A DNA stretch of 20,804 bases, from IMG/VR virus record IMGVR_UViG_3300050821_010082, positions 1 to 20,804 of that record, one strand, 5' to 3'. This DNA comes from a virus. This document shows, one piece after another, positions 3,997 through 20,804 of this stretch (positions within the stretch are counted from its first letter, which is position 1; the number at the start of each line of letters is the position of its first letter). Position numbers and translations under genes: made by a program. Under the pieces are notes generated by a model. That model ran no database searches. It was not told the DNA's origin and saw nothing but the letters and a program-made list of their open reading frames with translations.

Positions 3997-4791
3997 ATGC
4001 CTCAAAGTGTGTCTACCCGCACACGGTGTCAAGGGAGATTGACAGGCTTGGCTTCGGCGTGTTCCCCTGCCTTCGTGTCCAGCAGCCAAGCCCCCGAGAC
4101 TCTTCTTGCCGTCCGCTCCTCCCCTGCTCCGACCCCGTGGGACCGCCGTCCTCGCGAGTCAGCCTCCGCCTTCCGAGCGTTCTGCGTCTATCGCGACATG
4201 GGCACCGACCGAAGCCTTGAGCGTGTCGCTCTGCAGCTTGGTTTGGCTCTGCACAAGCTCGTTCGTTTGGCGCGTGACTTTGGTTGGCGAGGCAGAGTCG
4301 AGGCAAGCGATTTAGCGCTACTCGACCTCGCCAAAGTTCGGTCGGTCGAGTCGAGGCTCATGGCGGCTGACCGGCACGCTCAGCTCGCGCAAAGTCTGGT
4401 CGCCACGGCGGCAAAGCGAGCGTCGCGCCTCCTGCCCGAGGAGCTGGACGTCGATGCGCTGGTCAAGGTCGCGCGAACGGGCGTCGAGCTGGAGCGTCTG
4501 GCCCGTGGGGAGCGGAACGAAGGCGCGCCCCCTGCTCAGCAGGTCGCCGTCGGCGTGGCGGTTCGGTTTGGCTCTGCTGAGCCAAGCTGGATGAAGCAAA
4601 GCAAAACCGAAGCGAAGGGTACTAGTAGCATCGTGGGAACAAGTAATCGCGGGAACCAGCCCGCACCGGGTTCTCTACGCGAGTCAACCATTCCGAAATT
4701 GCCCCCGAAGGAAACGAAACGTATCAAGAGTACTAGTAGGCTCGCGGCAAAGGTCCATAAGGATAGGAAGGTTAAGGGACCCGTCCAGTGA
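3997..4791 (+). CDS. terS: Terminase small subunit
   Basis: The region 48-105 (WDRRP, ESASAFRAFCVYRDMG, RSLERVALQLGL, then DFGWRGR and VEASDL) is typical of the DNA-binding HTH domain of many siphovirus-like small terminase subunits. The middle (about 110-175) is helical and would serve oligomerisation. The C-terminal 60 residues are basic and disordered. It would recognise the packaging site and present DNA to the large subunit, whose gene overlaps it by 4 bases (GTGA). The start is uncertain: the ATG at 3997 has no ribosome-binding site, whereas TTG at 4048 has AAGGGAG 10 bases upstream and would give 247 aa. The domain is intact under either start. A weak -35-like TTGATT at 3971 with a -10-like hexamer at 3994 would favour the later start. 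Confidence 0.85.
   Translation: MPQSVSTRTRCQGRLTGLASACSPAFVSSSQAPETLLAVRSSPAPTPWDRRPRESASAFRAFCVYRDMGTDRSLERVALQLGLALHKLVRLARDFGWRGRVEASDLALLDLAKVRSVESRLMAADRHAQLAQSLVATAAKRASRLLPEELDVDALVKVARTGVELERLARGERNEGAPPAQQVAVGVAVRFGSAEPSWMKQSKTEAKGTSSIVGTSNRGNQPAPGSLRESTIPKLPPKETKRIKSTSRLAAKVHKDRKVKGPVQ
4019..4044. promoter_or_regulatory. Operator-like elements at the start of the rightward late unit
   Basis: GCACACGGTGT (4019-4029) is an exact 11-base match, in inverted orientation, to part of the repeat array upstream of the ribbon-helix-helix gene (1852-1862). It overlaps a perfect inverted repeat, TGTCAA (4027-4032) and TTGACA (4039-4044) with a 6-base spacer. Neither TTGACA copy has a -10 at proper spacing, so these look like protein sites rather than promoters. 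The region precedes the likelier TTG start of the small terminase gene. Confidence 0.35.
4240..4738. repeat. Repeats inside the small terminase gene (possible packaging-site elements)
   Basis: The 13-base sequence GGTTTGGCTCTGC occurs at 4240-4252 and 4565-4577. The second copy forms part of a perfect hairpin, TTGGCTC (4568-4574) with GAGCCAA (4579-4585). The 10-base GTACTAGTAG, containing the palindrome TACTAGTA, occurs at 4619-4628 and 4730-4739, exactly 111 bases apart. In pac-type phages the packaging start lies in or near this gene, so these are candidates for small-subunit recognition. That is inference. Confidence 0.4.
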
Positions 4792-6410
4792 GTATCACTA
4801 AGGTTGCCCATAACGGTGATACCCGCATTTTCGCCGAGACGGGCCGCGATCCGGCCTACGGGACCCCCATCATCATCAGTATTGGCCGGTCGGAGTACTA
4901 CCTTGGCAATCCCGTGGGTCCTCAGCAGTCTACCTTTATAAACGCCACGGAGCGGGAGCAGCTGTGCGGCGGGGCGAAGCGCGGTGCCAAGTCCGCCAGC
5001 CTATGCCAGAAGTTGGCTATGCTGGCCTGCCTGTTCCCCGGCAACCGTCTGGGCATGTTCCGGCAGGACCTCACGGACTTGAAACAATCTATTATGGTGA
5101 CTTGGGACATGCTGGTGCCCGAGGAGCTGATCCTCAATCATCACAAGACCGACCGGCTGATCACTATCCGGACCTCCGGTAAGCCGTCCATAATGCACTA
5201 TACCGGGCTGGGGGATGAGCATGACGCGGAATCGTCCAAGGGTAAAGAGTTTGGCCAATTCGCGGTCGATGAGCCGTCCGAAATATCTCCAGAGTCTTAT
5301 CGCCAGCTACTTGCGCAGCTCTGTTGGGTGCTCCCCAACGGGTCCCGTCCTCCATATATGGCCATGCTGGGGTCTAACCCGGAGCCGGGATGGGTCCACG
5401 ACCGCTTCTGGCCGATCATTGAGCCGACCGAGAATGACCCCGAACTAAAAGTGGTCAGCAACGGGCACCAGATATTCATCAAATTCCTCCCTGAGGACAA
5501 TATATACCTGCCGCCGAATTGGGTGGCCGATCAGGAGATGGACGCTCCGAAGGAGTGGGTGGAGAAGTACTTAAGAGGGTCATGGAAGACGTCCACCGGG
5601 CAGGTATTCAAGGAGTTCGATGAGAAAATTCACTGCATCGACGTCCCGCCGGAAGGTTACCTTAAATCCCTTATACTTGTGGCCTCGATCGATCATGGCT
5701 CTACCGGCACGACGGACATGCTTATCGAAGGCATCGACCCGGACGGGAACACGGTAAGCCTACTTGAATATCGGGAGAAGAACAAGCTTATCAGCGAACA
5801 CGCCCGGGGGATGGCGGCCTTAATGGACCGGGCGGTGCTCCTCTGCGGCAAAAAACAGGCGGTGGACAATGCTAAGAAGGACCCGGGTATCGTCCCATCA
5901 TTTTACGGGTTCGAATATATTCTTATCGACCCCTCGACCACTGCTAAGGTCAATCAGGGCAAAACTGAGCTATTCGCTAACATCGACGAGTACCGCCGCA
6001 ATGGCATCCCTGCTATCCCTGCCTATAACGCTCTGGAGTCTGGTATTAATTTGGTGGCTGAGTATCTCCACCCCAAACCCCTACATCGCCATCCTGTTAC
6101 TGGCGCTCTTGGCAGTCCTTCCACTTTTATCGTTAAGAAGAATTGTCCGGGCCTCATTCGGGACATCATCGGACTCCGCAAGACGATCACCGAACGGGGG
6201 ACCGTCCGGTATGTCGGGGAAGACCACGGCCTAGACAACAAGCGCTATATCCTTATGTCTAGACCGGAGCCTCCCGCCCGTACGGAACGCGATCTCCTAT
6301 CTTTCTCTACGCAAGATCAATTGTTGATGCGTACCCACGACAATTGGGCCAAGAGGTTTGGGCACACCGGCACCAACGACAACACTTGGTGGGGGGACAG
6401 AATACAATAA
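4788..6410 (+). CDS. terL: Terminase large subunit (packaging ATPase and nuclease)
   Basis: This is a 540-aa protein of usual family length. It pumps DNA into the prohead and cuts the concatemer. The ATPase domain has Walker A GGAKRGAKS at 61-69, Walker B FAVDE at 158-162 with the catalytic Glu, and the coupling segment GSNPEPGW at about 195-202 followed by HDRFW. The RNase H-like nuclease domain begins near 296 with ASIDHG (D302); a second acidic residue is probably in LIDP near 380. The GTG start overlaps the small-subunit stop (GTGA) and has AAGGGA 8 bases upstream. A one-base stop/start overlap joins it to the next gene. The family assignment is firm; the subfamily, and so cos or pac packaging, cannot be read from the sequence by eye. 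Confidence 0.96.
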   Translation: MSITKVAHNGDTRIFAETGRDPAYGTPIIISIGRSEYYLGNPVGPQQSTFINATEREQLCGGAKRGAKSASLCQKLAMLACLFPGNRLGMFRQDLTDLKQSIMVTWDMLVPEELILNHHKTDRLITIRTSGKPSIMHYTGLGDEHDAESSKGKEFGQFAVDEPSEISPESYRQLLAQLCWVLPNGSRPPYMAMLGSNPEPGWVHDRFWPIIEPTENDPELKVVSNGHQIFIKFLPEDNIYLPPNWVADQEMDAPKEWVEKYLRGSWKTSTGQVFKEFDEKIHCIDVPPEGYLKSLILVASIDHGSTGTTDMLIEGIDPDGNTVSLLEYREKNKLISEHARGMAALMDRAVLLCGKKQAVDNAKKDPGIVPSFYGFEYILIDPSTTAKVNQGKTELFANIDEYRRNGIPAIPAYNALESGINLVAEYLHPKPLHRHPVTGALGSPSTFIVKKNCPGLIRDIIGLRKTITERGTVRYVGEDHGLDNKRYILMSRPEPPARTERDLLSFSTQDQLLMRTHDNWAKRFGHTGTNDNTWWGDRIQ

Positions 6411-8118: not shown

Positions 8119-8522
8119 GCAGCGGCACTAACGGTTTAGGGCGTACCGCCGACGAACTTTCCACCCGTCGCGGCGGAGGCACGGGCGACCGCGCCATAGG
8201 CTCCGTCGTCGATCCTCTGGAGCGCGGCGGGTTCGGCCATTCCGGGCAGGAAGGCGTCCCCGGCAGCGCTCCCGGTGGCGGTGGAACCAGTGACATCGAG
8301 TCTTCTTCCCTCCCCGGCAATCCCCACTCCATGCATGGATTCCGCCATGCCATCATGAAGTCTCAGCACTCGGGCGGCGGGGGTGCTGGACACGGATTAG
8401 GGGGCGGTGGACGCCTTCTCGGGAAAGTCCGTAATGCCTCCCGCATGTTCCAAGGCGGGAGGACCCACGGCGTGCACGTCGGCGGCATGGGCATACACGG
8501 TTCGGGGGGCTTGAAGGGTTAA
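8115..8522 (+). CDS. Gly/His-rich protein related to the 143-aa protein
   Basis: This is a 135-aa protein whose ATG overlaps the previous stop (ATGA), with GAGGAG 8 bases upstream. Gly makes up roughly a third of the residues, with scattered His and Ser. The motif RAIGSVVDP...RGGFGHSG (about 26-44) matches the 143-aa protein at 6931-7362. The C-terminal third has GGRLLGKVRNASRMFQGG, perhaps a short amphipathic helix, and then HGVHVGGMGIHGSGG. It is probably disordered. No known family. Its place between terminase and portal suggests a head-assembly or virion accessory role, by context only. Confidence 0.75.
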   Translation: MSSGTNGLGRTADELSTRRGGGTGDRAIGSVVDPLERGGFGHSGQEGVPGSAPGGGGTSDIESSSLPGNPHSMHGFRHAIMKSQHSGGGGAGHGLGGGGRLLGKVRNASRMFQGGRTHGVHVGGMGIHGSGGLKG

Positions 8523-8815
8523 TGATCGTCCTCGCCATACTCGGCGTATTGTTTCTAGGCGTCCTAGTCGTCGCCCTAGTCCTGTTTTTTCGGGACTCCG
8601 CGTACAAAAATGCTCTCCTCGCGTCGGAACAGGCGCGAATAGACGTTCAGGAGCGGTGCGACAGGCTCACCGAGGCTCTGGCGCGGTCGGGAAAGGTCGA
8701 TCTAGTCCTTCCCCAGCCCCGGCAGGCTGTTCTCGAGCCTTCCCCGGGCTGGTTTGATCCCAAGCCACCACAAGTTCAGGTCAAGGTAAGTCCCTTAGGA
8801 GGGAAAACACAATGA
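8522..8815 (+). CDS. Membrane-anchored coiled-coil protein
   Basis: This is a 97-aa protein with a long N-terminal hydrophobic helix (residues 2-24, VLAILGVLFLGVLVVALVLF) with no charged residue before it, then an Arg/Asp step and a helical charged stretch (about 28-57, ASEQARIDVQERCDRLTEAL), and a Pro-rich end. There is one transmembrane anchor; the orientation is unclear. The start is joined to the previous stop (TAATG), and the stop overlaps the next start (ATGA). The architecture resembles inner-membrane spanins, but no partner lipoprotein with a lipobox is nested with it and no holin or endolysin is nearby, so a lysis role is not supported. The function is unknown. Confidence 0.75.
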   Translation: MIVLAILGVLFLGVLVVALVLFFRDSAYKNALLASEQARIDVQERCDRLTEALARSGKVDLVLPQPRQAVLEPSPGWFDPKPPQVQVKVSPLGGKTQ

Positions 8816-9621
8816 ATAAGAGGTTGAATAAGTGGTCAACGTTGGCCCGGCTGACTACGGTGCTGGCGGTCTCCCTGCTCATCGCGGGACTTACCGGCAA
8901 CCGCATCGCCAAGAATGGTACCATCATCTATGCCCAGCAATCCCCGTCCGCTTTGGTCGGGCAGGTTCTAGCGACTAATTACCTTGCCCCCACCGCAGGC
9001 GCTCAGATGGCGGCGGTCGGCGGCGTGGTCACCAATCCTGCCTCCAACTTCGTCGTTCAGATATCTGCTGGCACCGTGTTCTGTAGCGGCGAGTTTCAGT
9101 CCATGGGCCAGTTACAGATCACGCTGCTTCCCTCCACCACCTATGGCATTTTCTACAACTGTGCTGCCCCTGCCGCCTACGCCCGGACCGCCGTAGTCGG
9201 TCCCGGGTCCGCTCCCGGACAGCCCGGCGTCCCTTCCACCGTCCTCCAACCGCAGGGCGGCGAGATCTTTATTGCCGTCGTGGTATGCAATGCCACGGCC
9301 TGTGGCAACGGCGGCAACGGTTCCATCACCGACCAGCGCGTCCCCGCCCTGTGGGCTGTGGGCGAGCCTGTTGGTGCACACCTTCTTGCCGCTGGCACCA
9401 ACCAGGACGTTACCGGCCTCGCCACGCTTGCCGGTGGCACCAAGGCTATTACGTTCGTCATCCCGTATCAGGCGACGCCCAATTGCTTTGCTCAGGACGT
9501 GACCACCATCGCCAACACAGTTACGGCCATCACGTCGGGCGGCCCTCCGGTCACCACGCTCACCCTCACCGGCACCGGTACGGACGTCATTAAGTATTTC
9601 TGCATAGGGAACCCTAACTAA
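8812..9621 (+). CDS. Secreted or anchored fibre-type protein with shared C-terminal domain
   Basis: This is a 269-aa protein. A positively charged N-terminus and hydrophobic segment (about 12-28) are followed by IYAQQ near 39-43, so it is either a signal peptide with a long c-region or an uncleaved anchor. Residues 47-180 resemble a phage fibre module: QISAGTVFCSGEF, LLPSTTYGIFYNC, EIFIAVVVC and ending ITDQRVP. Residues 198-269 (TLAGGTKAITF ... LTGTGTDVIKYFC) match the C-terminus of the 1045-aa spike-like protein. The start overlaps the previous stop (ATGA) with AGGAGG 9 bases upstream. It lies just before the portal gene. It is probably a virion surface protein; the export signal in a phage structural unit is unusual. 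Confidence 0.78.
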   Translation: MNKRLNKWSTLARLTTVLAVSLLIAGLTGNRIAKNGTIIYAQQSPSALVGQVLATNYLAPTAGAQMAAVGGVVTNPASNFVVQISAGTVFCSGEFQSMGQLQITLLPSTTYGIFYNCAAPAAYARTAVVGPGSAPGQPGVPSTVLQPQGGEIFIAVVVCNATACGNGGNGSITDQRVPALWAVGEPVGAHLLAAGTNQDVTGLATLAGGTKAITFVIPYQATPNCFAQDVTTIANTVTAITSGGPPVTTLTLTGTGTDVIKYFCIGNPN

Positions 9622-9627
9622 ACCTCG

Positions 9628-11871
9628 ATGTCTTCCCTCCTACAGAGCGTCAAGGGCCTACTCGGGAAAGCCGGGTCGGCCCTTGGTCTGTCCGGCAACG
9701 GTACGGGCAAGGACGATGAGGGGCAAACAAATGCCCTATCCTTCACGCAGCGGATGTGGGATGACCTCAAGAATGCCTACGTGGTCTACCACCAGTCCAT
9801 CTGGCAGGCCATCCTCATGTACGCCAACCAGACTTGGATTGAGTGGGATGACGCCCGCAAGGTCTGGCAGCCCCAGCAGCCAAGCGACGATTGGGTGCCC
9901 CGCCCGCGCATTAATCGGTTTTCCCCCACCGTCGATGCCGTGTGCTCCAACTTCTTCAAGATCCCAGAAGTAGACGTTGAGCCTTCCCCGGACGATGATC
10001 CCGTAGCGATGCAGGTCACCAACGTCTGCAATAAGTATCTGGATTACTTCTTCACGACCAACGGCCTCCACGGTCCCTACAAGACCGTCAAGGACAAGTC
10101 CGGTGTCGCCGCCCAATTGTTCGTCTTGGCCGGTGGCGTCATGACGAACGTTTACCCGTTCCGCAAGAAGATCGGGACTTCGCCCGTCCCCGGCGCTCCG
10201 GTTCCGGGCATTTCCGCCACCTGCCCCAAGTGCGACACCGTTACCCCGATGCCTGCTCCCCCCGAGGGCATGAGTCCTCCCGAGACTTGCCCGCAGTGCG
10301 GCGGCCCCCTACAGGTCGAACGTACTCAGATACCCGGCGAACCGGAATTGGGAGAGGACGGCAACCCCAAGACTGAGGATCAGTACGAGTATTGCATTCA
10401 TTGCGACATCGAGAACATGCTATACGCAATTCCCCGCCCGGGCGCTCTCGATCTCGATGATTCCCCCTACTTCCTGCTTGCCAAGCGCAAGACCTTGGAC
10501 GACATCTTCTTCCGCTGGGACGGGTTCGATGCCTCCGCCGATTCCATTTGGCCCGATGGTTATTCCGTCACCTACGAGCACGCCCTGAACTTCTGGTATA
10601 CGGGTTATTCCTCGTCCACGATAGTCGCCAAGGACTCCTGCATGACTCTGCAGATGTACGTGCCCCCGAGTCATGTCAAGGATTTCCCCAATGGCTTCTA
10701 TTGCGTCTCCATCAATGATAAGGCCGCTCACTACGAGGAGTGGCAATTTCCGGAACACCCGATCACCATCGGCGGCTATCTGGATATGCCCACCCTATTT
10801 GTCGCCCGCTCCGTGGCCTTCGATCTGGCCGAGATTCAGCGCGAGCTTAATGCCTATGAGTCCATCATTAAGCTTCATGCCATGACTAGCGCGAGCGACC
10901 CGATTGTCATTGATGCCAATACGCTCGTGGGGGAGATCACTGGCCGTGCCGACAAATTTATCAAGTGGCGCTCCGTTTCGCCGAATAGCAAGGAGCCTCA
11001 CCGCATGGAGTCCGGGCACCTCGATGATGGCGTTTATAAGCAGCGCGATAACCTCCATGCTGAGTTCCAAAACATCTCTATGGCGGTTAATGCGTTCCGT
11101 GGCGAGCAGGAAGGTGCCATCGTCGCCGCCTCCGCCATCCAGCAGCTTCGGGGGCAGGCCGAGCAGATGTTCTCCAAGCCGCAGGAGAACTGGTCCTCCC
11201 TCTGGAAGGAGACCGGCAGAAAGGCACTCAAGTTTGCGCAGAAGTACCTGACCAACGTGCAGCTCGTCGCCATCTGCGGCCCCGGGTCCACCGCCGACAT
11301 CATGCAGTTCAAGAAGGCCGACCTCGACAAGTGCATCACGGTACTCGCATCGCAACACGGCATGCCCCGCACCCGCGATGAAAGAAAGTCCGAGATGATG
11401 ACCATGTGGGATAAAGGTGCTCTGGACATCAATCAGCCGGACGTCCGGCAGCGCATCTACGAATTATTCGGCGAGACGGGTATGATGAAGTCGTTCAATC
11501 TCGACGCCACCCGCGCCCGTCTTGAGAATCAAGCCATGAAGGAGAACGGCCAGGTTCTCCAGCCCATGGTGGGCATCGAGGACTTGGGTATTCACCTATT
11601 CATTCATACATCCCGCGTCAAATCCCTTGAATTCGATCAATGGAAGCCCGAGGCCAAGCAGGCCCTCATGCAGCACATCCAGCTCACCAATCAGGCGCTT
11701 GAGCAGCAGCAGATCAAGCAGGCCCAGATGGCGGCCATGCAGCAGAAGACTCAGGATGCCGGGAAGTCCAACGCCCAGATACACGGGTCGGCTGGCGCGA
11801 CCGCTTCCGCCGCCACGCCGCCCAAGAAGTCCGAGCAGAAGGGGCCGGGAGGTCCCCCAGCCAGTGCGTAA
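9628..11871 (+). CDS. Portal protein, large type with zinc-ribbon insertion
   Basis: This is a 747-aa protein, as long as P22-like portals. It would form the dodecameric ring at one head vertex through which DNA enters and leaves. Portal features include the N-terminal helical region (FTQRMWDDLKNAYVVYHQ, then WIEWDD), PRINRFSPTVDAVCSN, a central wing domain, the helix-rich RSVAFDLAEIQRELN, and a C-terminal Gln-rich helix (about 690-715). An insertion carries C199-x2-C202 and C221-x2-C224, a zinc ribbon, followed by another C256-x2-C259 pair. It precedes the secreted-protein cassette and then scaffold and capsid. The ATG has no clear Shine-Dalgarno site. The last 8 bases overlap the GTG of the next gene. 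The family assignment is firm. Confidence 0.9.
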   Translation: MSSLLQSVKGLLGKAGSALGLSGNGTGKDDEGQTNALSFTQRMWDDLKNAYVVYHQSIWQAILMYANQTWIEWDDARKVWQPQQPSDDWVPRPRINRFSPTVDAVCSNFFKIPEVDVEPSPDDDPVAMQVTNVCNKYLDYFFTTNGLHGPYKTVKDKSGVAAQLFVLAGGVMTNVYPFRKKIGTSPVPGAPVPGISATCPKCDTVTPMPAPPEGMSPPETCPQCGGPLQVERTQIPGEPELGEDGNPKTEDQYEYCIHCDIENMLYAIPRPGALDLDDSPYFLLAKRKTLDDIFFRWDGFDASADSIWPDGYSVTYEHALNFWYTGYSSSTIVAKDSCMTLQMYVPPSHVKDFPNGFYCVSINDKAAHYEEWQFPEHPITIGGYLDMPTLFVARSVAFDLAEIQRELNAYESIIKLHAMTSASDPIVIDANTLVGEITGRADKFIKWRSVSPNSKEPHRMESGHLDDGVYKQRDNLHAEFQNISMAVNAFRGEQEGAIVAASAIQQLRGQAEQMFSKPQENWSSLWKETGRKALKFAQKYLTNVQLVAICGPGSTADIMQFKKADLDKCITVLASQHGMPRTRDERKSEMMTMWDKGALDINQPDVRQRIYELFGETGMMKSFNLDATRARLENQAMKENGQVLQPMVGIEDLGIHLFIHTSRVKSLEFDQWKPEAKQALMQHIQLTNQALEQQQIKQAQMAAMQQKTQDAGKSNAQIHGSAGATASAATPPKKSEQKGPGGPPASA

Positions 11872-14800
11872 ACTAGCCCTATTACTAGCGTCCTTATTGA
11901 TGTTCGTCCTCCCTGCCTTGGGGCAGACTACCGTTACGGGCACGGTCGTCGACCCGAACGGTAACGTCTACGCGAACGGAACCGTATCCGCGACCCTGAC
12001 CGGCGCTTCCGGCATCCAGTACCAGTTATCCGGTTCTCCTGCCCCGGTGTCGTCCGGTCCATTCCCGATGACCGCCCTTGGCACCTTCTCCTTCCCCCTT
12101 GGGGACAATTCCGTCATCTCCCCGCCCGGGTCCGGGTATATCTTTACCCTTTGTGCGCAATCTGTGGGCCTCGGACCCGCCGTCACTCCGGTCCGCATCT
12201 GTTTCAATACCGCCCCCATCACCGTCACCGGCCCATTTCAAGACATCACCGGTCCCATCGGTGCATCGCCGCCCGCCATCCTCGGCCCTGCCCCATCCTC
12301 GGGCGGCGGCACCAGCATCCTCCCCCTCAATAACACATTTTCTGGCAACAACATTCATACGGGCAACGAGACGTTCAACCTCATTACTTCCTCCACCCTC
12401 AATCCGGGTTCTTCCGGGTTTATGCGCCTAGCCACAACCGATTTTATTGCATGGCGCAATGCCGCCAACAGTGCCGACATAACCTTGTCCAAGTCTCAAG
12501 CGGCGTCCGGTACCCTCCCAGCCGATCTGTTCGTGGCTAATGCTGGTCTTGGGGGCTGGTACGGGGCTGAATTTATTGATGCCAACGGTGCCCCGGCATC
12601 CGTGGGTGCATTCCGGGTATCCTCCACCGACCTTATTGCGTGGCGTAACAAAGCCGGTACCGGGGATAACCGCTTCGGACAGGACACCTACTCCGACGCC
12701 ACCACCGACGTTAGCAGGTTCTTCGATACCCCGGTCCTTGCTAAGTTCTTCGCCAGTGGCAATAATACGTTCGGTGGGTCATCTACCGGTGCGGCGTCCG
12801 GCGCATATCGCCTTGCTACTTCCGAGGCGATCTGCTGGCGCAATGCTGCTTCATCCGGCGACATCTGCATCACCAAAAATTCCTCCGATGCATTCCTATT
12901 CAACGGTGTTGGCCTTCTTATCAGCCCGATGACCCTACTCGGGGATTCCATTGTCGGCGGTGCATCCGGCGTTCCTACCCGTCTAGCTGGCCCCACCGGC
13001 CCTAATGGTGTACCCGAAATACTTCTATCCACGCCCTCAGGAGGCCTTGCTACCGCTCAAGGTTGGTCGCTCTACGGTCTTCTCAATCGTGAGGCGGCCA
13101 ATGGTGATACAGTATTGTCCTCCGACTGCGCTAATCGTATTCGATTCTCCGGGGCCGTGGCTGCCTCCGAGGCCCTCCCGACCCCCGCTACGTTGGGAAT
13201 TACTAAGTGCAATTTTAAGATCGTCAACAACCTGTCCACCGTCAACAGCGTCACCATCACCCCTGCCGGTGGCTTCCAGATCAACGGTTCGGGTACTCTT
13301 GTCCTGCTAAATGGTCAGGCCGCCTCGATATCCGTGGACGCATCGGGGACTAGCTGGGACGCGGATGTCGTCGAGACCGCCCTCGTCGCCGGTGCCAACA
13401 TCACTTTGACTCGCAGCGCTCTCGGCTTGTCCATTGCCGGTTCAGCAGGGGGTGGTTCCAATGCTCTATGCACGGTCAGCTTCACCCCGGGTGCGGTCGG
13501 CACCACCAACACCGCTGGCAGTACCTATTGTTTCAGTAATCCGGGCACTTATACGTTCGCTGCCGCTGACGTCATCACTAACGATAACGTTACTCTTTTC
13601 TGTTTGGACGGTTCGGCTATCCTCCAACGCACCACCGGTACGAATGATGGGTTCGACCTACAGGGGAACAACGACCAGATCATCGGCTGCAAGATTGACG
13701 GGAATGGTGGCACGGTCAATAACTTGATCGTAATGACCGGGAACCATGACCGGGCCAATAACAATTTCCTACAGAACGCCACTACGACTTCGCAGACCGG
13801 TCTAATTCGCATCTCGGCGGGCATCGACAATCAGGCCAATGGCAACCAATGTCCTGCCCTGAACGATGTATGCGTGTATATCTCCGAAACTGCCGCTATC
13901 CACCAGTTTCAGGCCAACGGCAACTGGTGCGAACTGACGGTCGGCACTACCAGCAACGACGCATGCGTAGGGTACCACGGTCTGGGTAACGGGGGCATTC
14001 TTGGCGGCCTGATCAGCAACAATACCGCTCGATGGCTTAGTGGAACTGGCAATTCCTATTGTTGGGAGGGCACGGGAGGCAACAACGGCACGCTCCCTTA
14101 TACCGTCCAGCGCATTCATACCACCAACAATGACTGTGAGTTTGTAGGCGGGAACCCTCAGGCATTCCGGCAGGCATCCTGTGGTGCCTGCGTCACCGAC
14201 AACAACACGGTTATCGACAACGGCATCACCCCGGGCGGCGCGATCTGGACCATCGGCGACAATTTTGGGGGCTATTTCGGACATAACGTCACCACCATCA
14301 CTTCCGGTGGTGGGTGTCAAACCGTTTACAATTTCGTTGATAATGCCCGTTTGGAAGTCGGCGACAACACGTCCGAGGGCTGCGGGTCCAATGCCGGAGA
14401 ATTCGCCTATCTATTTACCAACGTCACCGCTCAATCCGGTGGTGACGTCAATTTCCATGGTAATAATTGTTTTCTACCCGCTAGCGGTTCGGGTACGTGT
14501 TACGACTTCAAGAGCAACATCAACACTACCGCGATGCCGAACATATTGTTCCACGGAAATAAAGCGGTTGAGACTGGCACTGCCAACGGCATCGGCGCGA
14601 AATTCGAGACCGCAAACGGCGGTACGATGGATAGTCCGCTCATCGGTCTTAACAGCTATGCCGGTTTGGCAAACGGTCTGATAATCAACGATTCAGGGGT
14701 AACTAATGCCAAGGTGGGCATACAGTCCTACGCCGGGGTAACCACGAGGGTTACCGACAATGGCACTAATTCTGCTATTCAGGATACTTCATTTACACTG

Positions 14801-15001
14801 TCCGGCACCCTCTCTGGTGGAACCAAGACGGTTACGTTCCCGGCTGGCGGGTTCAGTTCCTCATCCTCTTATAATTGCCTGCCGCCGCGCGACACCACGA
14901 CACCGGCCAATGCTCTTACTCTAGGTACGTTCACGGCTACCACCGTGGTCCTTACCGGCACCGGCACTGACGCATTCACTCTTAGCTGTTCGGGGAGGTA
15001 G
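11864..15001 (+). CDS. Secreted tail-spike-like protein with WRN repeats and beta-helix
   Basis: This is a 1045-aa protein. The GTG at 11864 gives a clean signal peptide (RKLALLLASLLMFVLPALG|Q, cleavage near 20); the frame is open upstream to 11627, but that stretch lies inside the portal gene and is Ser/Arg/Pro-rich shadow sequence. GGGAGG lies 11 bases upstream. Residues about 21-110 resemble a carboxypeptidase-regulatory-like beta-sandwich (VTGTVVDPNGN). Residues 185-345 hold three repeats with R-(L/V)-x3-(D/E)-x-I-x-WRN, W at 197, 260 and 325. Residues about 560-960 are Asn/Gly-rich with repeated N-x-D turns (GCKIDGNGGTV), fitting a right-handed beta-helix as in spikes. The C-terminal 75 residues match the 269-aa protein. 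A likely role is host-surface or polysaccharide binding; enzymatic activity is not established. Confidence 0.8.
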   Translation: MRKLALLLASLLMFVLPALGQTTVTGTVVDPNGNVYANGTVSATLTGASGIQYQLSGSPAPVSSGPFPMTALGTFSFPLGDNSVISPPGSGYIFTLCAQSVGLGPAVTPVRICFNTAPITVTGPFQDITGPIGASPPAILGPAPSSGGGTSILPLNNTFSGNNIHTGNETFNLITSSTLNPGSSGFMRLATTDFIAWRNAANSADITLSKSQAASGTLPADLFVANAGLGGWYGAEFIDANGAPASVGAFRVSSTDLIAWRNKAGTGDNRFGQDTYSDATTDVSRFFDTPVLAKFFASGNNTFGGSSTGAASGAYRLATSEAICWRNAASSGDICITKNSSDAFLFNGVGLLISPMTLLGDSIVGGASGVPTRLAGPTGPNGVPEILLSTPSGGLATAQGWSLYGLLNREAANGDTVLSSDCANRIRFSGAVAASEALPTPATLGITKCNFKIVNNLSTVNSVTITPAGGFQINGSGTLVLLNGQAASISVDASGTSWDADVVETALVAGANITLTRSALGLSIAGSAGGGSNALCTVSFTPGAVGTTNTAGSTYCFSNPGTYTFAAADVITNDNVTLFCLDGSAILQRTTGTNDGFDLQGNNDQIIGCKIDGNGGTVNNLIVMTGNHDRANNNFLQNATTTSQTGLIRISAGIDNQANGNQCPALNDVCVYISETAAIHQFQANGNWCELTVGTTSNDACVGYHGLGNGGILGGLISNNTARWLSGTGNSYCWEGTGGNNGTLPYTVQRIHTTNNDCEFVGGNPQAFRQASCGACVTDNNTVIDNGITPGGAIWTIGDNFGGYFGHNVTTITSGGGCQTVYNFVDNARLEVGDNTSEGCGSNAGEFAYLFTNVTAQSGGDVNFHGNNCFLPASGSGTCYDFKSNINTTAMPNILFHGNKAVETGTANGIGAKFETANGGTMDSPLIGLNSYAGLANGLIINDSGVTNAKVGIQSYAGVTTRVTDNGTNSAIQDTSFTLSGTLSGGTKTVTFPAGGFSSSSSYNCLPPRDTTTPANALTLGTFTATTVVLTGTGTDAFTLSCSGR

Positions 15002-15004
15002 GGG

Positions 15005-17848
15005 ATGATCATTCTTAAGCGCCTGTTACCGCTAGTCCTACTGGCCGCCGCCTCCGCGTTCGGGCAGGCCACGCCCCCTTCTTATAACTATCCCCCTCCG
15101 GGTGCGGACATTCTCGGTGGGTTCAAGGGGCAGCCCTGCGTCAATCCGGCTTGGCCCCCGGCGACCGTCACTACTCCCGGGGGCACCACTACCTACCGTC
15201 TCCCCATTACTAACGTCGTCCTTGCCTCCGGTACTAATACGGTCACGGTTCCCAGCACCTCCACGCTCATCTCCGGTCAGGTCGTCTACCTCACGCAGGT
15301 CACCGATTCATTCTATAATACTTCCCTTTCCACACTCGGGGTCACCATCACCAAGACCGGTGCTTCCACATTCACCTTTCCCGGCACCGGCACCCATACG
15401 GCATCCAGCGGCGGATTCGTGGTTCCCGGTAACTGGTATTTCCAGCTCCAGACTTCCCTATCCCCTCAGGCTTGGTATTTGTGCAACGATCAGGGTAATC
15501 GAATGTTTTTTGAGGGGATCGCGGCAGGCACTTGCCCCTCCTCCGGTGGCGCGGGATCGCTCCTCGCCAACAAGTACGGCGGCAACCCCCAGCTCGCTGC
15601 CAATGATACTATTGCCTTCATCAGCAACATCAATTTCAATGGATTCGGGGAGACTTGGACGTGCACCGATGGGTTCCCCATGGCCGCTCTCGATACTACT
15701 ACTGTTGGCCTCTATTCCTCCAACAATCTCAATGGCATCCTTCCTGCCGGTAACGCCATCAAGGACCCCCGCCAGCTTATTAGTCCGGTGTTCACCACGG
15801 TCACTACCGGGGGCTTCGGTAACCCTGCTGGCTGTATCGATGCATTTGATCCGAAGTTTGAGACGTTCGCTCAGGGGTACTTGACGGTTTCGCAGAACCC
15901 GAACATACGCAAGAGTCCATATCAGGCGATGCTGTCGATCGATAGCGCCGACCAGACCGCCTGTTCCTCGGTCGGTCCGGATTTTGATAGTTACCCCATC
16001 GATCACAACGCCAATGCCATTGCCTACATCATGTTTACGATTTCCCCGATTGAGACTTATAACCCACGGACGGACCGGGGGTCGGCGGGGAACAGCGGGC
16101 CTACGTCCGCCGCGTGGCTATACGCGGACCCGATCGTATATACGAAGACGCTTATGGCGTCGCCACCTACGACTTGTTCCGGCACTGTGGTTTCCAATCC
16201 GCCCACGGTTGCCCCGTGCCCCATCCCGACGTTTCTACAGAAAAAGTATGGCACCGTTGCCGCCCTCAACGCCGCTTGGGGAGGTGCTAACTATTCTACG
16301 TTCGGGTCAGATGGCACGTGTATCGGCTATTCCTTCACGTGGTGCGCAGCTACGCTCCCATCCGGCACGGTCGGTGTCGGCAACAACACCGTTCTCACTT
16401 ATACTACGGCTACTCATGCCAATGTCGATCCGTTCTCGGTGCAGATACTTCTGAACGGGGTAGTCATCGGCGGCGACTGTCCACAGTTTATGCAGAGCGG
16501 CATCTGCGGTACTCCGGGGGCGGGGCTGGGTAAAATTTCCGGTGCTACCCTTGCCGGTGGCACGATCAACTATGCGACCGGCGCCCTCACCGTTACATTT
16601 ACTGCCGGTAATGCTCCCCCGACCGGATCTTCCATTCAAGCTAACCTGATTTGGGGCGGCTGGCCTAAGAACGGTCCGGGCGGTGGCGGGCACGGCGTCA
16701 TGGATGAGGATGGCAGTGGTTCGTGGTTTGGCACCAATCCGGTATGCCTAAAGCCGGTTGACCCATCACATCTTCCCGGGACGGATAGCTTCGTATGTCG
16801 TCCAGCCAACCCTACGGGCCTTGCTGCGCCGAATGCCAATACCACCTTCGCCTCGGACATGGTGGATGGCTGGGAACCTCAGTATTTCGGTGCGTACTTC
16901 TCCAGCGTCCGTACAGCATTCAAGGCGGCGACCCCGAACCTGATGTATCTATCCCCTGAGACAACCGGCACTCAGACGATGCCCCCGCCGAAGTCGATGC
17001 TGATTGGCGCAAATCTCTATGCGGACGGACTCTATGCCACGGATTATGTAGCAGGGCTACCGGACGTCGCCACGCGGGCCGCCATGCTCGCCTATTATAC
17101 CAAATTCTACTCAGGGCCGATGATCTCCGGGATGCTCCGTACTGCTAGTCCCGATTCTGCCGTGGCGAATATTGCCGGTAACACTGCCACGAGCTGCCAA
17201 GGCTCCGTGGTCTGTTCCACCACTCAGGGTGCCCGCGCTTTAGAGTGGTTCAATTCCATAAATGAGATGCTTACTCTGCCCGGATTCACGGGCGTCCTGC
17301 AGTGGGTGGGGCTGACTTGGTGGTCGCTGAATGATTGTGACACCGATCCGGGGAACCCGAATAATTGGGGCCTCAAATCCTGCGGCGGCACGGCGACTGG
17401 CGGAATTAACTCTTCATCCGTCACGTCGAATAACGCCTATGATGGGCGCGAGGCTGCCGTAGCCGCCATATCATGTTCGCCCCCGTCCCTCGCTACGGGC
17501 CTTTGCGGTTTGGAGCACAATCCGGGTAGCTCCCCGGTTAACGCTATCCGACCATTCGGCGATGTAATTCATGGCCCCGGGGGCAATAATGGAGTCAAGG
17601 CAGCCAACTTGCTATGGACGACGGGGCTTATCCCGCCGCCGCCCCCTCCCCCTGCCCCTTGCCCGCAGTGCCAAATATTTACGTGGAGCGTCCCTACCAC
17701 TATGGCGCACACCGGTTGCAAATATATTCCGGGCACCACCACCTACTGTATGGCCGGGGATGGCCTATACGTTTCCTCGGACGGCGTGACTTGGACGAAG
17801 GCGGCACCGCTGGCGGCGTCGGCGGTGACTAAGGTGTCGCTCAATTAG
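15005..17848 (+). CDS. Secreted glycoside-hydrolase-like protein with nested beta domain
   Basis: This is a 947-aa protein. The signal peptide (IILKRLLPLVLLAAASAFG|Q) is preceded by GGGGAGG 6 bases before the ATG. Residues 60-140 are a beta domain. Residues about 145-820 show TIM-barrel glycosidase traits: NRMFFEGIAAG (165-175), FLQKKYGTVAALNAAWGG (410-427), YFGAYFSSVRTAFKAATPN (627-645) and a terminal strand with WWSLNDCDTDP ... NWGL ... YDGRE (772-816), as in GH5/GH42-like enzymes. An insertion at about 453-552 (VLTYTT ... INYATGALTVTF) is a phage-type beta module. The C-terminus has a poly-Pro linker (835-841) and an Asp-box-like SSDGVTWT. The catalytic glutamates cannot be assigned by eye. 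A likely role is degradation of host or environmental glycans. Confidence 0.75.
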   Translation: MIILKRLLPLVLLAAASAFGQATPPSYNYPPPGADILGGFKGQPCVNPAWPPATVTTPGGTTTYRLPITNVVLASGTNTVTVPSTSTLISGQVVYLTQVTDSFYNTSLSTLGVTITKTGASTFTFPGTGTHTASSGGFVVPGNWYFQLQTSLSPQAWYLCNDQGNRMFFEGIAAGTCPSSGGAGSLLANKYGGNPQLAANDTIAFISNINFNGFGETWTCTDGFPMAALDTTTVGLYSSNNLNGILPAGNAIKDPRQLISPVFTTVTTGGFGNPAGCIDAFDPKFETFAQGYLTVSQNPNIRKSPYQAMLSIDSADQTACSSVGPDFDSYPIDHNANAIAYIMFTISPIETYNPRTDRGSAGNSGPTSAAWLYADPIVYTKTLMASPPTTCSGTVVSNPPTVAPCPIPTFLQKKYGTVAALNAAWGGANYSTFGSDGTCIGYSFTWCAATLPSGTVGVGNNTVLTYTTATHANVDPFSVQILLNGVVIGGDCPQFMQSGICGTPGAGLGKISGATLAGGTINYATGALTVTFTAGNAPPTGSSIQANLIWGGWPKNGPGGGGHGVMDEDGSGSWFGTNPVCLKPVDPSHLPGTDSFVCRPANPTGLAAPNANTTFASDMVDGWEPQYFGAYFSSVRTAFKAATPNLMYLSPETTGTQTMPPPKSMLIGANLYADGLYATDYVAGLPDVATRAAMLAYYTKFYSGPMISGMLRTASPDSAVANIAGNTATSCQGSVVCSTTQGARALEWFNSINEMLTLPGFTGVLQWVGLTWWSLNDCDTDPGNPNNWGLKSCGGTATGGINSSSVTSNNAYDGREAAVAAISCSPPSLATGLCGLEHNPGSSPVNAIRPFGDVIHGPGGNNGVKAANLLWTTGLIPPPPPPPAPCPQCQIFTWSVPTTMAHTGCKYIPGTTTYCMAGDGLYVSSDGVTWTKAAPLAASAVTKVSLN

Positions 17849-17858
17849 GAGGATGAAC

Positions 17859-18785
17859 ATGAAGAAATTTTTACTGGCACTGGCGCTATTACTAACCCCG
17901 GGGCTGGCTCTCGCTCAGCAGCAGGTCACTCCTGCCCCGGATTGCGTGTTCGCCGCCGACTACAACGGCACGACCGCCCAGCGCTTCCCCGCTGCTCAGA
18001 CTCCCGGTGGTACTATCGGGTTCGATAATCGCAATTTAGGCTGCACCACGTGGCATTTGTACTATACGGTCACGGGCTATTCCGCCGTATCGGTCGAACT
18101 CGATAATGCCCCCGATTCGAACGGCCAGCCCGGCTCATGGGTAGTATGGCCTTCCATCGATATCGCGTCCAACACGCTGCCGATGACTACGGCGACGCAG
18201 GACCAGATTACGGCTTACGAATTTTATCCGTGGGTATCCATCAACGTCAATTCCGTAACCGGCAACGGGCGTATTCTCCTTAAGGCATACGGCTGGCGTC
18301 CCGGTCCCCTGCAGGATGCCAACGTCGCCCCAAACTCCGTAACCATAAACGGGACGACCGTCGTAGGAGGTACCGTAACCGTCGTCGGACAGACTGCCGG
18401 TGCCGCCGACCCCTGCATGTCCAGCGGCATCGTCAAGTCGTCCGTCGCCATCTCCATCGCCGCTGCGGGCACCACTCAGCTTGTCGCTCCGTCCGGCGCT
18501 TCGTCCGTATACGTCTGCGGCGGGTCTTTCACCATCGCCCCGTCCGGTACTGCCGCCGACTCTCTACAGTTCATTACGGGAACCGGTGCGACATGCGGCG
18601 GCTCTACCGTCACCAAGACCGGTACCTTCGGTTCAGGGGACCTAACGACGACGACCGGCCCGCTGGCGGTTACGCTTCCCGCCACGGGTACGGTATTCAG
18701 CGCGGCGGGTAGCTCCGGGGTCTGCGCCGTCGCCGCTGGCACCACGGTCAACATTCAGGGAATTATCACCTATGTACAGCAGTAA
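17859..18785 (+). CDS. Secreted beta-rich virion-type protein
   Basis: This is a 308-aa protein. The ATG at 17859 is chosen over the in-frame ATG at 17853 because AGGAGG ends 6 bases before it and touches the other. The signal peptide KKFLLALALLLTPGLALA|QQQ would be cleaved at about 19. Residues 28-148 look like a beta-sandwich (FDNRNLGCTTWHLYYTV, VSVELDNAP, AYGWRP). Residues 184-308 form a Cys-containing beta module (SSVAISIAAAG, VYVCGGSFTIAP, GTGATCGGST, GVCAVAAGTTVNIQGIITYVQ) resembling modules I recall from phage tail or head-associated proteins in metagenomes. It is third in the cassette of exported proteins, between the glycosidase-like gene and scaffold. Its function is probably surface decoration or adhesion; the exact family is unknown. 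Confidence 0.78.
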   Translation: MKKFLLALALLLTPGLALAQQQVTPAPDCVFAADYNGTTAQRFPAAQTPGGTIGFDNRNLGCTTWHLYYTVTGYSAVSVELDNAPDSNGQPGSWVVWPSIDIASNTLPMTTATQDQITAYEFYPWVSINVNSVTGNGRILLKAYGWRPGPLQDANVAPNSVTINGTTVVGGTVTVVGQTAGAADPCMSSGIVKSSVAISIAAAGTTQLVAPSGASSVYVCGGSFTIAPSGTAADSLQFITGTGATCGGSTVTKTGTFGSGDLTTTTGPLAVTLPATGTVFSAAGSSGVCAVAAGTTVNIQGIITYVQQ

Positions 18786-18824: not shown

Positions 18825-19811
18825 ATGAACAGCAAACTTTGCATCTGGTTTCCACTAAGGCCCTTTATGGCTTTCGCCTCAGCGGGTTCCTCACTACCCG
18901 GGTCCACCCCCGGTGACTCGGGAGGAGGCGCTCCAGCAGGCGGAACGGGGGGAGGCGCACCCGGCGCAGGTGCTCCCGGCCCCGGTGCTGGCTCGGGTAC
19001 TCCCGCTGCCGGTGCAGGCGCTGCCCCCGACAACATCGCGCAACTTAGAACTGCTTATGAGGCCCTCAAGGCCAAGCACGAGCCTTACGAGAAGCTAGGG
19101 GAATATGAGCAGGTATCCGGTGGTTACGGCGCATATCAGAAGGTGTTCGCCGAAGTGTCGGAAATTGGCACCGCGCTCGGGTATCCGGAGGACGAGATCG
19201 CGGAGGCCATGCGCGAGGCCCCGATAGAGACCTTGGACTATTTACGCCGCCAGTACGCGGAGGCGGAGTCCGGGGCGGGGGGCGGGGAGGGTGAGGTTAG
19301 TCAGGAAGATCTCCGTGCTCAGGTTGAGGCCATGGTTAGTGAGGGCCTGCAACCGGTCTACGAGCGGGAGAATGTCACCCGCACGGAGAACGCTAACGCC
19401 CTGTTCGACCGGACGGTCTACGGCATGATCGGAGAAGCGCTCAAGAAGGAGGGCGCGGACATTGCTTCTCTCCGCAACGATCCGGTTGCCAAGCACGAGA
19501 TCGAGTGCCTCATTCTGGCTACCCGGGAGATCATGAAGTGGGACGCGGACGGCATAAAGGCGCTCAAGTTTGAAGGAAAGACTGCTGCCGTCCAGAAGGC
19601 ATTCAATACGGCGCAGAATCTGTTCGAATCGTACTATGTGGCTCGGGGCACCCGGGAGCGGAACAAGATCGTAGCCCCGGGAAGAGGAGCAGGCGGAGGG
19701 GCACCCGGAGCGGGAGGGGCGGGCGCAGGTGGGGCCAAGAAGGGCCTCACGCTCGACGAGATGATTGATGATCCGGGCAAGATTAACCCGAAGTACGCAG
19801 CCAAAGTTTAA
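18825..19811 (+). CDS. Scaffold-like head assembly protein
   Basis: This is a 328-aa protein directly before the capsid gene. Residues 19-68 are a Gly/Pro/Ala low-complexity linker. Residues 70-265 are charged and helical (LRTAYEALKAKHEPYEKLGEYEQV, EDLRAQVEAMVSEGLQPVY, a long helix near 245-270). Another Gly/Ala linker (282-303) precedes a short C-terminal LTLDEMIDDPGKINPKYAAKV, a typical capsid-contacting tail. Composition and position fit phage scaffolding proteins, which fill the prohead and leave during maturation. AAGGAG lies 7 bases before the ATG at 18825; an alternative Met15 at 18867 would give a more typical N-terminus but has only AAGG. No protease motif is seen. The role rests mainly on context and architecture. 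Confidence 0.8.
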   Translation: MNSKLCIWFPLRPFMAFASAGSSLPGSTPGDSGGGAPAGGTGGGAPGAGAPGPGAGSGTPAAGAGAAPDNIAQLRTAYEALKAKHEPYEKLGEYEQVSGGYGAYQKVFAEVSEIGTALGYPEDEIAEAMREAPIETLDYLRRQYAEAESGAGGGEGEVSQEDLRAQVEAMVSEGLQPVYERENVTRTENANALFDRTVYGMIGEALKKEGADIASLRNDPVAKHEIECLILATREIMKWDADGIKALKFEGKTAAVQKAFNTAQNLFESYYVARGTRERNKIVAPGRGAGGGAPGAGGAGAGGAKKGLTLDEMIDDPGKINPKYAAKV

Positions 19812-19935: not shown

Positions 19936-20804
19936 ATGGGCGTAGACACAACGACCTATTTGGCTGACGCCAAGATCGTATATGGCGCTATCCAAGAGCA
20001 GGTGTCTACGCTTGCCGCGATAATGAATCTGTTCGGGGACGGTTCCAAGTTTGGCAAGCCGATTAATGACATCGGCATCCGTGGGTACGTGTTCTTGGCC
20101 CGCGTCCAGCCCAACTGGAATATGGGATACCGACCTGAGGGAACGACTGGCGTTGGCGCAGCCGGTAACCAAGGCTTGACCAACTCCACCGTGACCTTGC
20201 GGTACGCGTACGTCCCGATCACCATTACCGGGCAGGCGGAGAACCTGACCAAAGGCGAATCTCGAGCCTTCATGCAGGCTAAGGCCCTTGAAGCCAAGTT
20301 TGACATGAAGGACATCGTGAGCCACGTGAACGTAGTCGTAGTCGGTGCCGAACCCGGAGGCCAATTGGCTCAGGTCAAGGCCGCCGGTGGCGGCAACCCG
20401 TTCACGGCTGACAACACCGGACTGTTGCCCGGCTCCATCTACCTTCGGGTAGGTATGCCGGTCGATGGAATCCCGGTCGGTGGCGGCGCTCCCGATTTCA
20501 CCAACCAGAAGATCACGGCCATCAACTATGCCACGAACGCCGTAACATTGGCTGGTGGCGTCGCGGTGGCCGGACACGCAATCGCGCTCGCCGGTGAATA
20601 TCCTCAGGTCGCGATCGCCAATGACGGGTGGTTCACCGCCAACGGCTTCCAGAACCTGATCAACTCATCGGGCGTCGTGCAGGGCATCGATCCGGGCGTA
20701 TTCCCAGCTTGGCAATCGTACCTGCAGGACGTCGGCGGCGCGGCCCTCTCCTCGCAGCTCCTCCAGCAACTGAGGCAGTTCGTGAAGAACCGGGGCGGCG
20801 TGGA
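19936..20804 (+). CDS. Major capsid protein, C-terminus cut off by window edge
   Basis: The frame is open from the ATG at 19936 to the last base (289 complete codons, no stop). AAGGAGG lies 6 bases before the start, one of the best ribosome-binding sites in the window, as expected for the most abundant virion protein. The N-terminal arm (TTTYLADAKIVYGAIQEQVSTL) is followed by an extended, beta-rich region (YVFLARVQPNWNMGYRPEG, VTLRYAYVPITITGQAENL) and a long helix-like stretch (about 107-130), a pattern seen in HK97-fold capsid proteins. The region near 175-220 may be an inserted beta domain (KITAINYATNAVTLAGGVA). Its place after the scaffold-like gene supports the call. The subfamily is not determined. 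Confidence 0.85.
   Translation, partial: MGVDTTTYLADAKIVYGAIQEQVSTLAAIMNLFGDGSKFGKPINDIGIRGYVFLARVQPNWNMGYRPEGTTGVGAAGNQGLTNSTVTLRYAYVPITITGQAENLTKGESRAFMQAKALEAKFDMKDIVSHVNVVVVGAEPGGQLAQVKAAGGGNPFTADNTGLLPGSIYLRVGMPVDGIPVGGGAPDFTNQKITAINYATNAVTLAGGVAVAGHAIALAGEYPQVAIANDGWFTANGFQNLINSSGVVQGIDPGVFPAWQSYLQDVGGAALSSQLLQQLRQFVKNRGGV

Follow-up and report, generated by a model that had tools for sequence, protein, structure and literature searches.

Why a tailed phage would carry genes for exported proteins among its head-assembly genes is the question raised by the window described here, an IMG/VR phage record (IMGVR_UViG_3300050821_010082) of 20,804 bases. As a rule, tailed phages assemble their particles within the bacterial cell. 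Four proteins encoded around the portal and scaffold genes of the window, designated A, B, C and D, begin with Sec-type N-termini, and the coordinates and lengths given for them in an earlier note on this DNA hold. The observation made in that note was right and was understated, as the predicted signals spread beyond the four proteins. We tentatively favour the reading that A, B, D and probably C, together with the protein at the tailspike position, are receptor-binding (fibre or spike) proteins of a podovirus, made as Sec precursors that would join the virions at lysis. The four proteins and their parts are listed below, with a slash at the predicted cleavage junction.

8812..9621, + strand: protein A, 269 aa, with an N-terminal signal, a disordered linker, a domain like the shoulder of receptor-binding proteins (RBPs) and a lectin-like tip
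8812..8934, + strand: predicted Sec signal of A, 41 aa, ...IIYA/QQ
9007..9363, + strand: shoulder-type domain of phage RBPs in A, residues 66-184, from structure matches of the model
9382..9612, + strand: tip domain of A, residues 191-267, resembling tailspike tips and H-type lectins, from structure matches of the model
11864..15001, + strand: protein B, 1045 aa, with a GTG start overlapping the portal stop; signal, N-domain and variable body
11864..11923, + strand: signal peptide of B, 20 aa, ...LPALG/QTT, with GGGAGG upstream
11924..12301, + strand: N-domain of B (QTTVTGTVVDPNGN...)
15005..17848, + strand: protein C, 947 aa, signal and a body of unknown family, 24 Cys
15005..15064, + strand: signal peptide of C, 20 aa, ...ASAFG/QAT
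17859..18785, + strand: protein D, 308 aa (310 from an ATG two codons upstream), signal and two beta-rich parts
17859..17915, + strand: signal peptide of D, 19 aa, ...GLALA/QQQ

Signals were predicted with a custom rule that combines a basic n-region, a 9-residue uncharged h-region and small residues at positions -3 and -1. The rule was calibrated on 44 genes of E. coli K-12 with location labels assigned by the author of the analysis, and it passed all five periplasmic or outer-membrane proteins plus one putative one, all four lipoproteins, and not the single Tat substrate. Proteins A, B, C and D all pass at the starts listed, with the rule's own best cleavage site falling 16 residues earlier for A and 4 earlier for C. 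The N-termini are as the earlier note had described them, at 41 aa for A, 20 for B, 20 for C and 19 for D. For B, the automatic gene caller had picked a later ATG and skipped both the GTG start and the signal. The start of A lies before the hydrophobic segment and is accompanied by a Shine-Dalgarno-like site in the 15 non-duplicate rows of its alignment (the L023 start being taken upstream of the caller's choice), and the later in-frame starts in these rows are not conserved and mostly lack such a site. Wrong start codons as the source of the signals, a possibility considered for A only, are ruled out by this start position and by the Shine-Dalgarno-like sites. The same rows bear on the remark in the earlier note that conserved starts downstream of the hydrophobic segment would count against its observation; none were found for A. 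Sec export is the best reading of the N-termini of A to D, and is a prediction.

The predicted junction is conserved. Glutamine occupies the aligned +1 position of A in 15 of 15 rows, window included, and follows Ala in 12, Gly in two and Ser in one; the row with Ser (L023) has another A/Q three residues earlier. The D family likewise has Gln at +1 in 8 of 8 rows. The A sequences share a mean pairwise identity of 0.24 upstream of the junction and of 0.47 in the 120 columns that follow, a step from a divergent signal to a kept domain that fits what is expected for a cleaved signal. These features bear on the suggestion that the hydrophobic N-terminus is an uncleaved membrane or assembly anchor, for example one that holds head assembly at the inner membrane. 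Such an anchor would suit the position of the hydrophobic segment of A about 12 residues from the junction, the small protein with a hydrophobic N-terminus that precedes A, the 7 of 22 scaffold-type genes that pass the rule as well, and the inability of the rule to tell anchors from signals. It would not account for the conserved +1 Gln, for a signal that diverges while the next domain does not, or for the fact that B, C and D have signals of a typical length, 19-20 aa, and we regard it as quite unlikely. The virion-anchor option raised in the earlier note is thus weakened by the conserved Gln junction and the typical signals.

The signal-bearing block recurs in relatives. Related contigs were gathered by portal and capsid scans of IMG/VR, and the block was defined as gene A plus the genes between portal and scaffold. 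It was counted in 27 loci on distinct contigs, including the parent of the window and leaving out the near-duplicates L030, L045 and L058, the weak L050, 5'-open genes, genes shorter than 60 aa and repeats of the same N-terminus. The rule is passed by 47 of 70 block genes and by 21 of 354 others (Fisher 1.1e-28, a value that only ranks the contrast and is no true probability, since the genes are related and non-independent). After shuffling, the block proteins pass in 186 of 3500 trials; chance as the origin of the signals is ruled out by this rate together with the contrast between block and other genes. Sites of the form [AVSTG]x[AG]Q are found among the passing genes in 33 block genes and four others. 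Capsid (4/22) or scaffold-type (7/22) genes make up 11 of the 21 passing non-block genes, and the capsid passes of L003 and L028 are taken to be upstream start choices of the gene caller because the L004 and window capsids start later. Eight of the 23 failing block genes pass at another in-frame start, a test that did not extend to the late-added L059, L062, L066 and L068; among the other failures are the L059 lysozyme and the genes between portal and scaffold in L046, L049 and L066. The position just before the portal could be read in 23 contigs, and gene A is present in 17 of them. The search for the cassette in related contigs that the earlier note had proposed thus finds it again, with the number and content of the genes between portal and scaffold varying among relatives.

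Several further features of the block were observed in the relatives. The scaffold-type genes of L024, L025, L026, L029, L032, L035 and L068 have signal-like hydrophobic starts (such as MIKHLLSYLLFCGTMFAAGAPA). A cysteine-rich, signal-less protein, the CysP family (L003:17811-18440, L004:17661-18350 and relatives), precedes the scaffold-type gene in many relatives in a total of 13 copies, and was not found in the parent genome of the window. The near-identical contigs L058 and L059 encode a phage lysozyme inside the portal-scaffold block (L058:7943-8332, L059:3037-3426; Pfam 5.9e-13 for L058, the copy scanned), along with small hydrophobic proteins.

The mature block proteins contain few charged residues and many cysteines. 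Cysteine content per 1000 aa is 28.6 in A and 21.9 in the signal-bearing block genes, as compared with 2.4 in the capsid, 0.9 in the scaffold and 7.0 in the genes after the capsid.

An indication of function comes from the fold of A. An AlphaFold2 (AF2) model built from 15 sequences (mean predicted local distance difference test score, pLDDT, of 65; predicted template modelling score of 0.46) consists of a helix at residues 7-29, a low-confidence stretch at 34-68, beta strands at 81-174 and a second beta part at 201-265. In Foldseek, the PDB entry that matched best was the tail fibre of cyanophage A-1(L), with two of its chains (4.6e-5 and 2.1e-4); next came the baseplate of lactophage p2 (2.1e-3) and the tailspike of Pam1 (0.046). 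In VIA-align, residues 62-184 matched the A-1(L) tail fibre 8kec (Z 10.5), the phi812 baseplate protein 9euj (Z 9.8), the p2 RBP 2bsd (Z 8.6) and Mtd 1yu4 (Z 7.8), and residues 191-267 matched the Pam1 tailspike 7eea (Z 8.2), the R2 pyocin fibre (Z 7.2), the Sf6 tailspike (Z 6.3) and Helix agglutinin (Z 5.7); the tool warns that a Z below 8 may reflect a common arrangement, and six chains reach 8. Rows 1-36 of this search are phage or pyocin proteins, mostly fibre, baseplate and tailspike proteins, plus lectins. In BFVD the best matches of A came from haloarchaeal tailed viruses and are uncharacterised; a receptor-binding sandwich domain (2.3e-4) and a domain of H-type lectins (2.4e-3) follow lower down. 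A PDB profile search gave weak matches to sialidases and one other protein at E of about 0.1.

Across the 15-row alignment, unrelated tips are carried on a conserved stem. One type, ending ...GNPN, is present in the window, L018, L024, L025, L026, L029 and L038; a second, ...AWRC-like, is present in L003, L004, L019, L021, L022, L023 and L031; and L032 has a third and longer type. The same shoulder fold followed by an exchangeable tip is featured in the A-1(L) tail fibre, the p2 RBP and Mtd of BPP-1. Unlike these, A has a Sec-type N-terminus, is rich in cysteine and adjoins the portal; the solved phage RBPs are not known to have a signal. The evidence points to A being composed of two phage receptor-binding modules, a shoulder and a lectin-like tip, with binding itself predicted from the model.

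The same kind of N-terminus occurs at the tailspike position, which lies outside the window. The window is identical, with 0 mismatches over 20804 bases, to part of IMGVR_UViG_3300021171_000003 (G001; loci L002 and L010-L012). This record has a 124-base direct terminal repeat and opens within the capsid gene, which indicates a complete circular phage genome of approximately 43.4 kb. Following the ejection-type proteins (named by position) and preceding small membrane-type genes, G001 encodes a 422-aa protein with a predicted signal ending ...KVAA/SLSTITGTING. Relatives of this protein were found in nine of 20 records searched, and in eight of these nine genomes (G001, G005, G007, G008, G010, G012, G014 and G015) the spike-position protein passes the rule. 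In G010, the signal and N-domain are followed by a pectate-lyase domain (Pfam 7e-14) with a match to the tail spike family phrog_2234 (1.4e-14). For the G014 spike, matches in 10 phage records were confined to short stretches, and an IMG/VR scan with the spike N-domain retrieved only three contigs, all already in the set.

A census of fibre-like proteins in this group of soil phages gave a similar picture. It covered proteins of at least 120 aa chosen by composition in 11 records (four of them covered in part), with some alternative starts allowed for all proteins, and 35 of 48 fibre-like proteins passed the rule versus 38 of 465 others. On inspection, five of the 13 exceptions were two pieces cut by a boundary (G012, G015), one protein with its signal too far upstream (G002) and two hydrophobic starts missed by the rule (G002, G007). 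In G001 all five fibre-like proteins pass (B when read from its GTG start), and in G003 four of five do; G003 has in addition a 277-aa one cut by the region boundary. Because the two ends of G003 lie within the same PurZ-like gene, the genome is probably complete, even though there is no exact repeat. No fibre-like gene was seen at its spike position, which leaves the block proteins as its binding-type candidates. No obvious large signal-less fibre or spike was seen in either G001 or G003, the two complete-looking genomes.

These observations bear on the main rival explanation, in which the block proteins are exported and never enter the virion, acting instead on or around the infected cell as secreted or surface-held adhesins or as glycan-binding or glycan-cutting proteins. 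They might, for example, cover receptors against other phages, loosen the matrix or stick released virions to surfaces. The signals and cysteine data fit this explanation equally, and it accounts better than the favoured reading for the presence of several paralogues per genome and of a lysozyme in the L058/L059 block; signal-bearing B-type domains in other viral contigs, some apparently from other virus kinds, are also in its favour. It would leave the complete-looking G001 and G003 without an obvious large receptor-binding protein, and the pectate-lyase tailspike, at the tailspike position, is signal-bearing as well. On balance we consider free adhesins doubtful. The purpose that the earlier note left open can be narrowed to the extent that the folds of A, the tip swaps and the signal at the spike position point to proteins of receptor-binding or fibre type; joining the virion is the favoured continuation and is inferred only.

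Less can be said of the other three proteins. In B the signal is followed by an N-domain of about 125 aa that is conserved, and the remainder is variable. A scan with this domain gave 27 loci, several of them from contigs in the set and some mutual duplicates; 25 pass the rule at some in-frame start, and the remaining two were read by eye as ...SSAWA/QF (L097) and ...AAFA/QF (L099). Many of the 13 B-domain loci inspected look unlike the phage of the window, and 10 proteins from five such loci had almost no matches in PHROGs. Signal-bearing B-type proteins were observed in L089, L091, L093, L095, L096, L101, L102, L105 and L107, several with resolvase-like and ATPase-like genes as judged by eye, and the structural-looking genes tried in L105 gave no useful PHROGs match; the L089-L107 contigs with B-type proteins possibly belong to another virus kind. 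B itself had no match in Pfam, PHROGs or NCBIfam, and its N-domain had none in the PDB profile search. No tblastn match to B or C was found in the phage collection. For C, neither Pfam nor NCBIfam gave a match; PHROGs gave a single weak one, to a family of unknown function (0.038), and the one PDB match was at chance level. The IMG/VR scan found C only in the identical parent contig. A TIM-barrel-like look had suggested by eye that C might be a glycoside hydrolase, a candidate rejected for want of profile support; the glycan breakdown proposed in the earlier note finds no backing for C in Pfam, NCBIfam, PHROGs or PDB profiles. Homologues of D are encoded on seven further distinct contigs. D had no match in Pfam or PHROGs, and its AF2 model (mean pLDDT 53) is too weak for use. 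No barrel family was among the Pfam matches of the window proteins in a scan not aimed at autotransporters, and one relative gave a sub-threshold AC_1 match.

The variable gene number and content between portal and scaffold, the detection of C in no viral contig but the identical parent, and a weak CarboxypepD_reg match of the L003 relative of B (9.5e-4, below the curated cut-off) are what would be expected if the block consisted of cargo acquired from the host, with the phage having captured ordinary secreted proteins at a site that tolerates them and where they have little role specific to the phage. This is very unlikely given that A is present in 17 of the 23 contigs noted above, folds like phage RBPs and exchanges its tips as phage fibres do.

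Two cultured phages encode comparable proteins. The rule is passed by gp19 of BcepC6B, annotated as 'tail fiber', and by orf035 of PBR31, annotated as 'putative structural', with junctions by eye of ...ALALG/ATL and ...TSAFG/ATL respectively. Like the block proteins they are of fibre type and signal-bearing, and they are placed directly after the tail spike. They differ from the window phage in that there is one such protein per stretch examined, from another sequence family and outside the head block. The main spikes of both phages fail the rule, and the tail fibres of CB5 and Mulvp2, which share the C-terminal part of orf035, do not pass either. The accessible parts of the papers on these phages make no mention of gp19 or orf035 in virions. 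In the available portions of the PBR31 paper, the esterase gp40 is the only protein for which a signal is mentioned and the tailspike is treated as the apparent RBP, and no mass spectrometry was found there (PMC10975493); for BcepC6B, the portions seen identify gp18 and gp16 as structural (PMC3426561). Three signal peptides are given for two rumen Bacteroides phages in the accessible text of another study, where fibres are not named (PMC5723332). The Lom protein, as described in part of a further paper, resembles the block proteins in being phage-encoded, exported and located among tail genes, and is an outer-membrane beta-barrel, whereas the block proteins are fibre-like and multi-domain (PMC12309495). 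Podoviridae sp. ctLwi270 (MW202554), from spring water, has four genes with signal-like starts after its portal (three pass the rule and one was judged by eye), three of which are annotated as glycoprotein repeat, ConA-like lectin/glucanase and endopolygalacturonase; its portal is 19.7% identical to that of the window and its habitat differs. No report of signal peptides on the fibres or spikes of tailed phages was found in the open-access literature as far as it was accessible. The parts, phage RBPs and Sec signals, are known, and their combination across a phage group, up to the tailspike gene, was not found described in the same literature.

Under the favoured reading, the Sec machinery would export the fibre and spike precursors and signal peptidase I would cut before Gln. 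The cysteine-rich beta domains would then fold with disulfides outside the cytoplasm, presumably in the periplasm, and the portal, capsid, tail tube and ejection proteins would be made signal-less in the cytoplasm. At lysis the exported fibres may dock onto finished particles as a last step. In vitro, finished P22 heads can still receive their tailspikes, a point on which the papers found gave no confirmation, and a spike added last is accordingly plausible. Export would both allow disulfides to form and prevent sticky binding domains from interfering with assembly in the cytoplasm. It is possible, and we put it a little more cautiously than the favoured reading itself, that the virion is built in two compartments, with heads, tails and ejection proteins assembled in the cytoplasm and disulfide-bonded spikes and fibres matured in the periplasm after Sec export, the two being joined at lysis. 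The site in the head block would then serve as a cassette for collecting and swapping exported binding proteins.

A number of observations weigh against joining to the virion. Such a signal-bearing protein is not known here from any virion, and there are several such proteins per phage, more than one tail seems to need. An RBP fold is seen for A only and none is shown for B, C or D; the confidence of the A model is moderate and its whole-chain TM-scores are low, at 0.2-0.3. In the calibration, six of 12 inner-membrane proteins and one of 21 cytosolic proteins passed as well, and the rule, which finds signals well, therefore cannot separate cleaved signals from N-terminal anchors. High cysteine content is not confined to exported genes and proves nothing by itself: per 1000 aa, early genes on the minus strand have 18.5, the portal has 12.4 and the CysP family, which is signal-less, has 43.6. 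A was not found in six of 23 contigs (L028, L042, L046, L049, L058 and L066), the genes between portal and scaffold lack signals in L046, L049 and L066, and the block of L058/L059 includes the lysozyme. Two adjacent genes in G013 start directly at the spike N-domain with no signal, and a 22-codon signal-like open reading frame (ORF) identified by eye (MKRFLGLLALVLAVACPMMEFK; L062:9993-10061) lies in another frame just before the first of them; this mini-ORF is a candidate for a lost or split signal, a frameshift or an assembly error. Eight census exceptions are real signal-less fibre-like proteins; four of them belong to G013, and G003, G005, G012 and G014 have a single one apiece. Finally, L034 (G003) encodes a signal-less protein of 167 aa that weakly matches tail fibre J (phrog_31, 5.1e-9) and could carry host binding.

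The gene order of the window is early genes on the minus strand, the terminase small subunit (TerS), the terminase large subunit (TerL), several small genes, the gene at 8522-8815, A, portal, B, C, D, the scaffold-type gene and the capsid gene. The features surrounding the block proteins are as follows.

3997-4791: TerS (phrog_6299, 8.6e-17)
4788..6410, + strand: TerL (phrog_979, 5.1e-10)
8522..8815, + strand: small protein with a hydrophobic N-terminal segment (by eye), directly before A
9628..11871, + strand: portal, 747 aa, no signal (phrog_156, 4.9e-13)
18825..19811, + strand: scaffold-type protein, no signal by the rule in the window, named by position and similarity among relatives
19936..20802, + strand: major capsid protein, cut by the window end (the L004 homologue matches phrog_14242, 3.1e-21)

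The portal exhibits 10 matches in the phage collection at approximately 20-22% identity, and its Pfam P22_portal match is below the family cut-off. The L023 158-aa block protein, the L034 tail tube and the 153-aa G013 fibre protein had no match in the phage collection. Features reminiscent of P22/Sf6-type phages are the phrog_156 portal, the spike following the ejection proteins (named by position), the pectate-lyase spike of G010 and the similarity of the A tip to the Sf6 tip (Z 6.3). The spike-position N-domain, a 'TLTGTIKRPDG' domain behind a signal, is unlike that of P22/Sf6-type tailspikes. The order in PBR31 agrees with G001, with the tail spike placed after three internal proteins and separated by one gene from the lysis genes that follow. 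Its phrog_156 portal and PBR31-like spike order make this phage, known from its genes alone, a candidate P22-like podovirus. A profile scan of genome contigs with the capsid alignment gave one weak match (L050, a Desulfamplus metagenome-assembled genome), so there is no convincing prophage and no host is assigned; Acidobacteria would be our guess, which we base on the AxA/Q cleavage style. Elsewhere in G001, a PurZ-like, adenylosuccinate synthetase-like protein (L011:5329-6570; NF038379, 6e-58, below cut-off), a family-4-type UDG and a DNA polymerase I-like protein with weaker DpoZ matches (L011:7263-8330 and 8348-9733; below curated cut-offs) and a 5'-deoxynucleotidase-like protein (L011:10150-10770; 6.8e-8, below the curated cut-off) are encoded in a cluster, and G001 is a candidate 2-aminoadenine (Z) DNA phage.

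The presence of such a protein in two cultured phages, BcepC6B and PBR31, makes the question testable, and gene calling that skips hydrophobic starts, as happened for B, would lose a real feature. If the exported proteins are virion parts, they would be an exception to the wholly cytoplasmic assembly of tailed phages, and morphogenesis would depend on the Sec and disulfide machinery of the host. If they are not, a soil phage group would secrete many proteins of receptor-binding type. In either case, a secreted or glycan-active look seems insufficient for calling the signal-bearing proteins of soil viruses metabolic genes.

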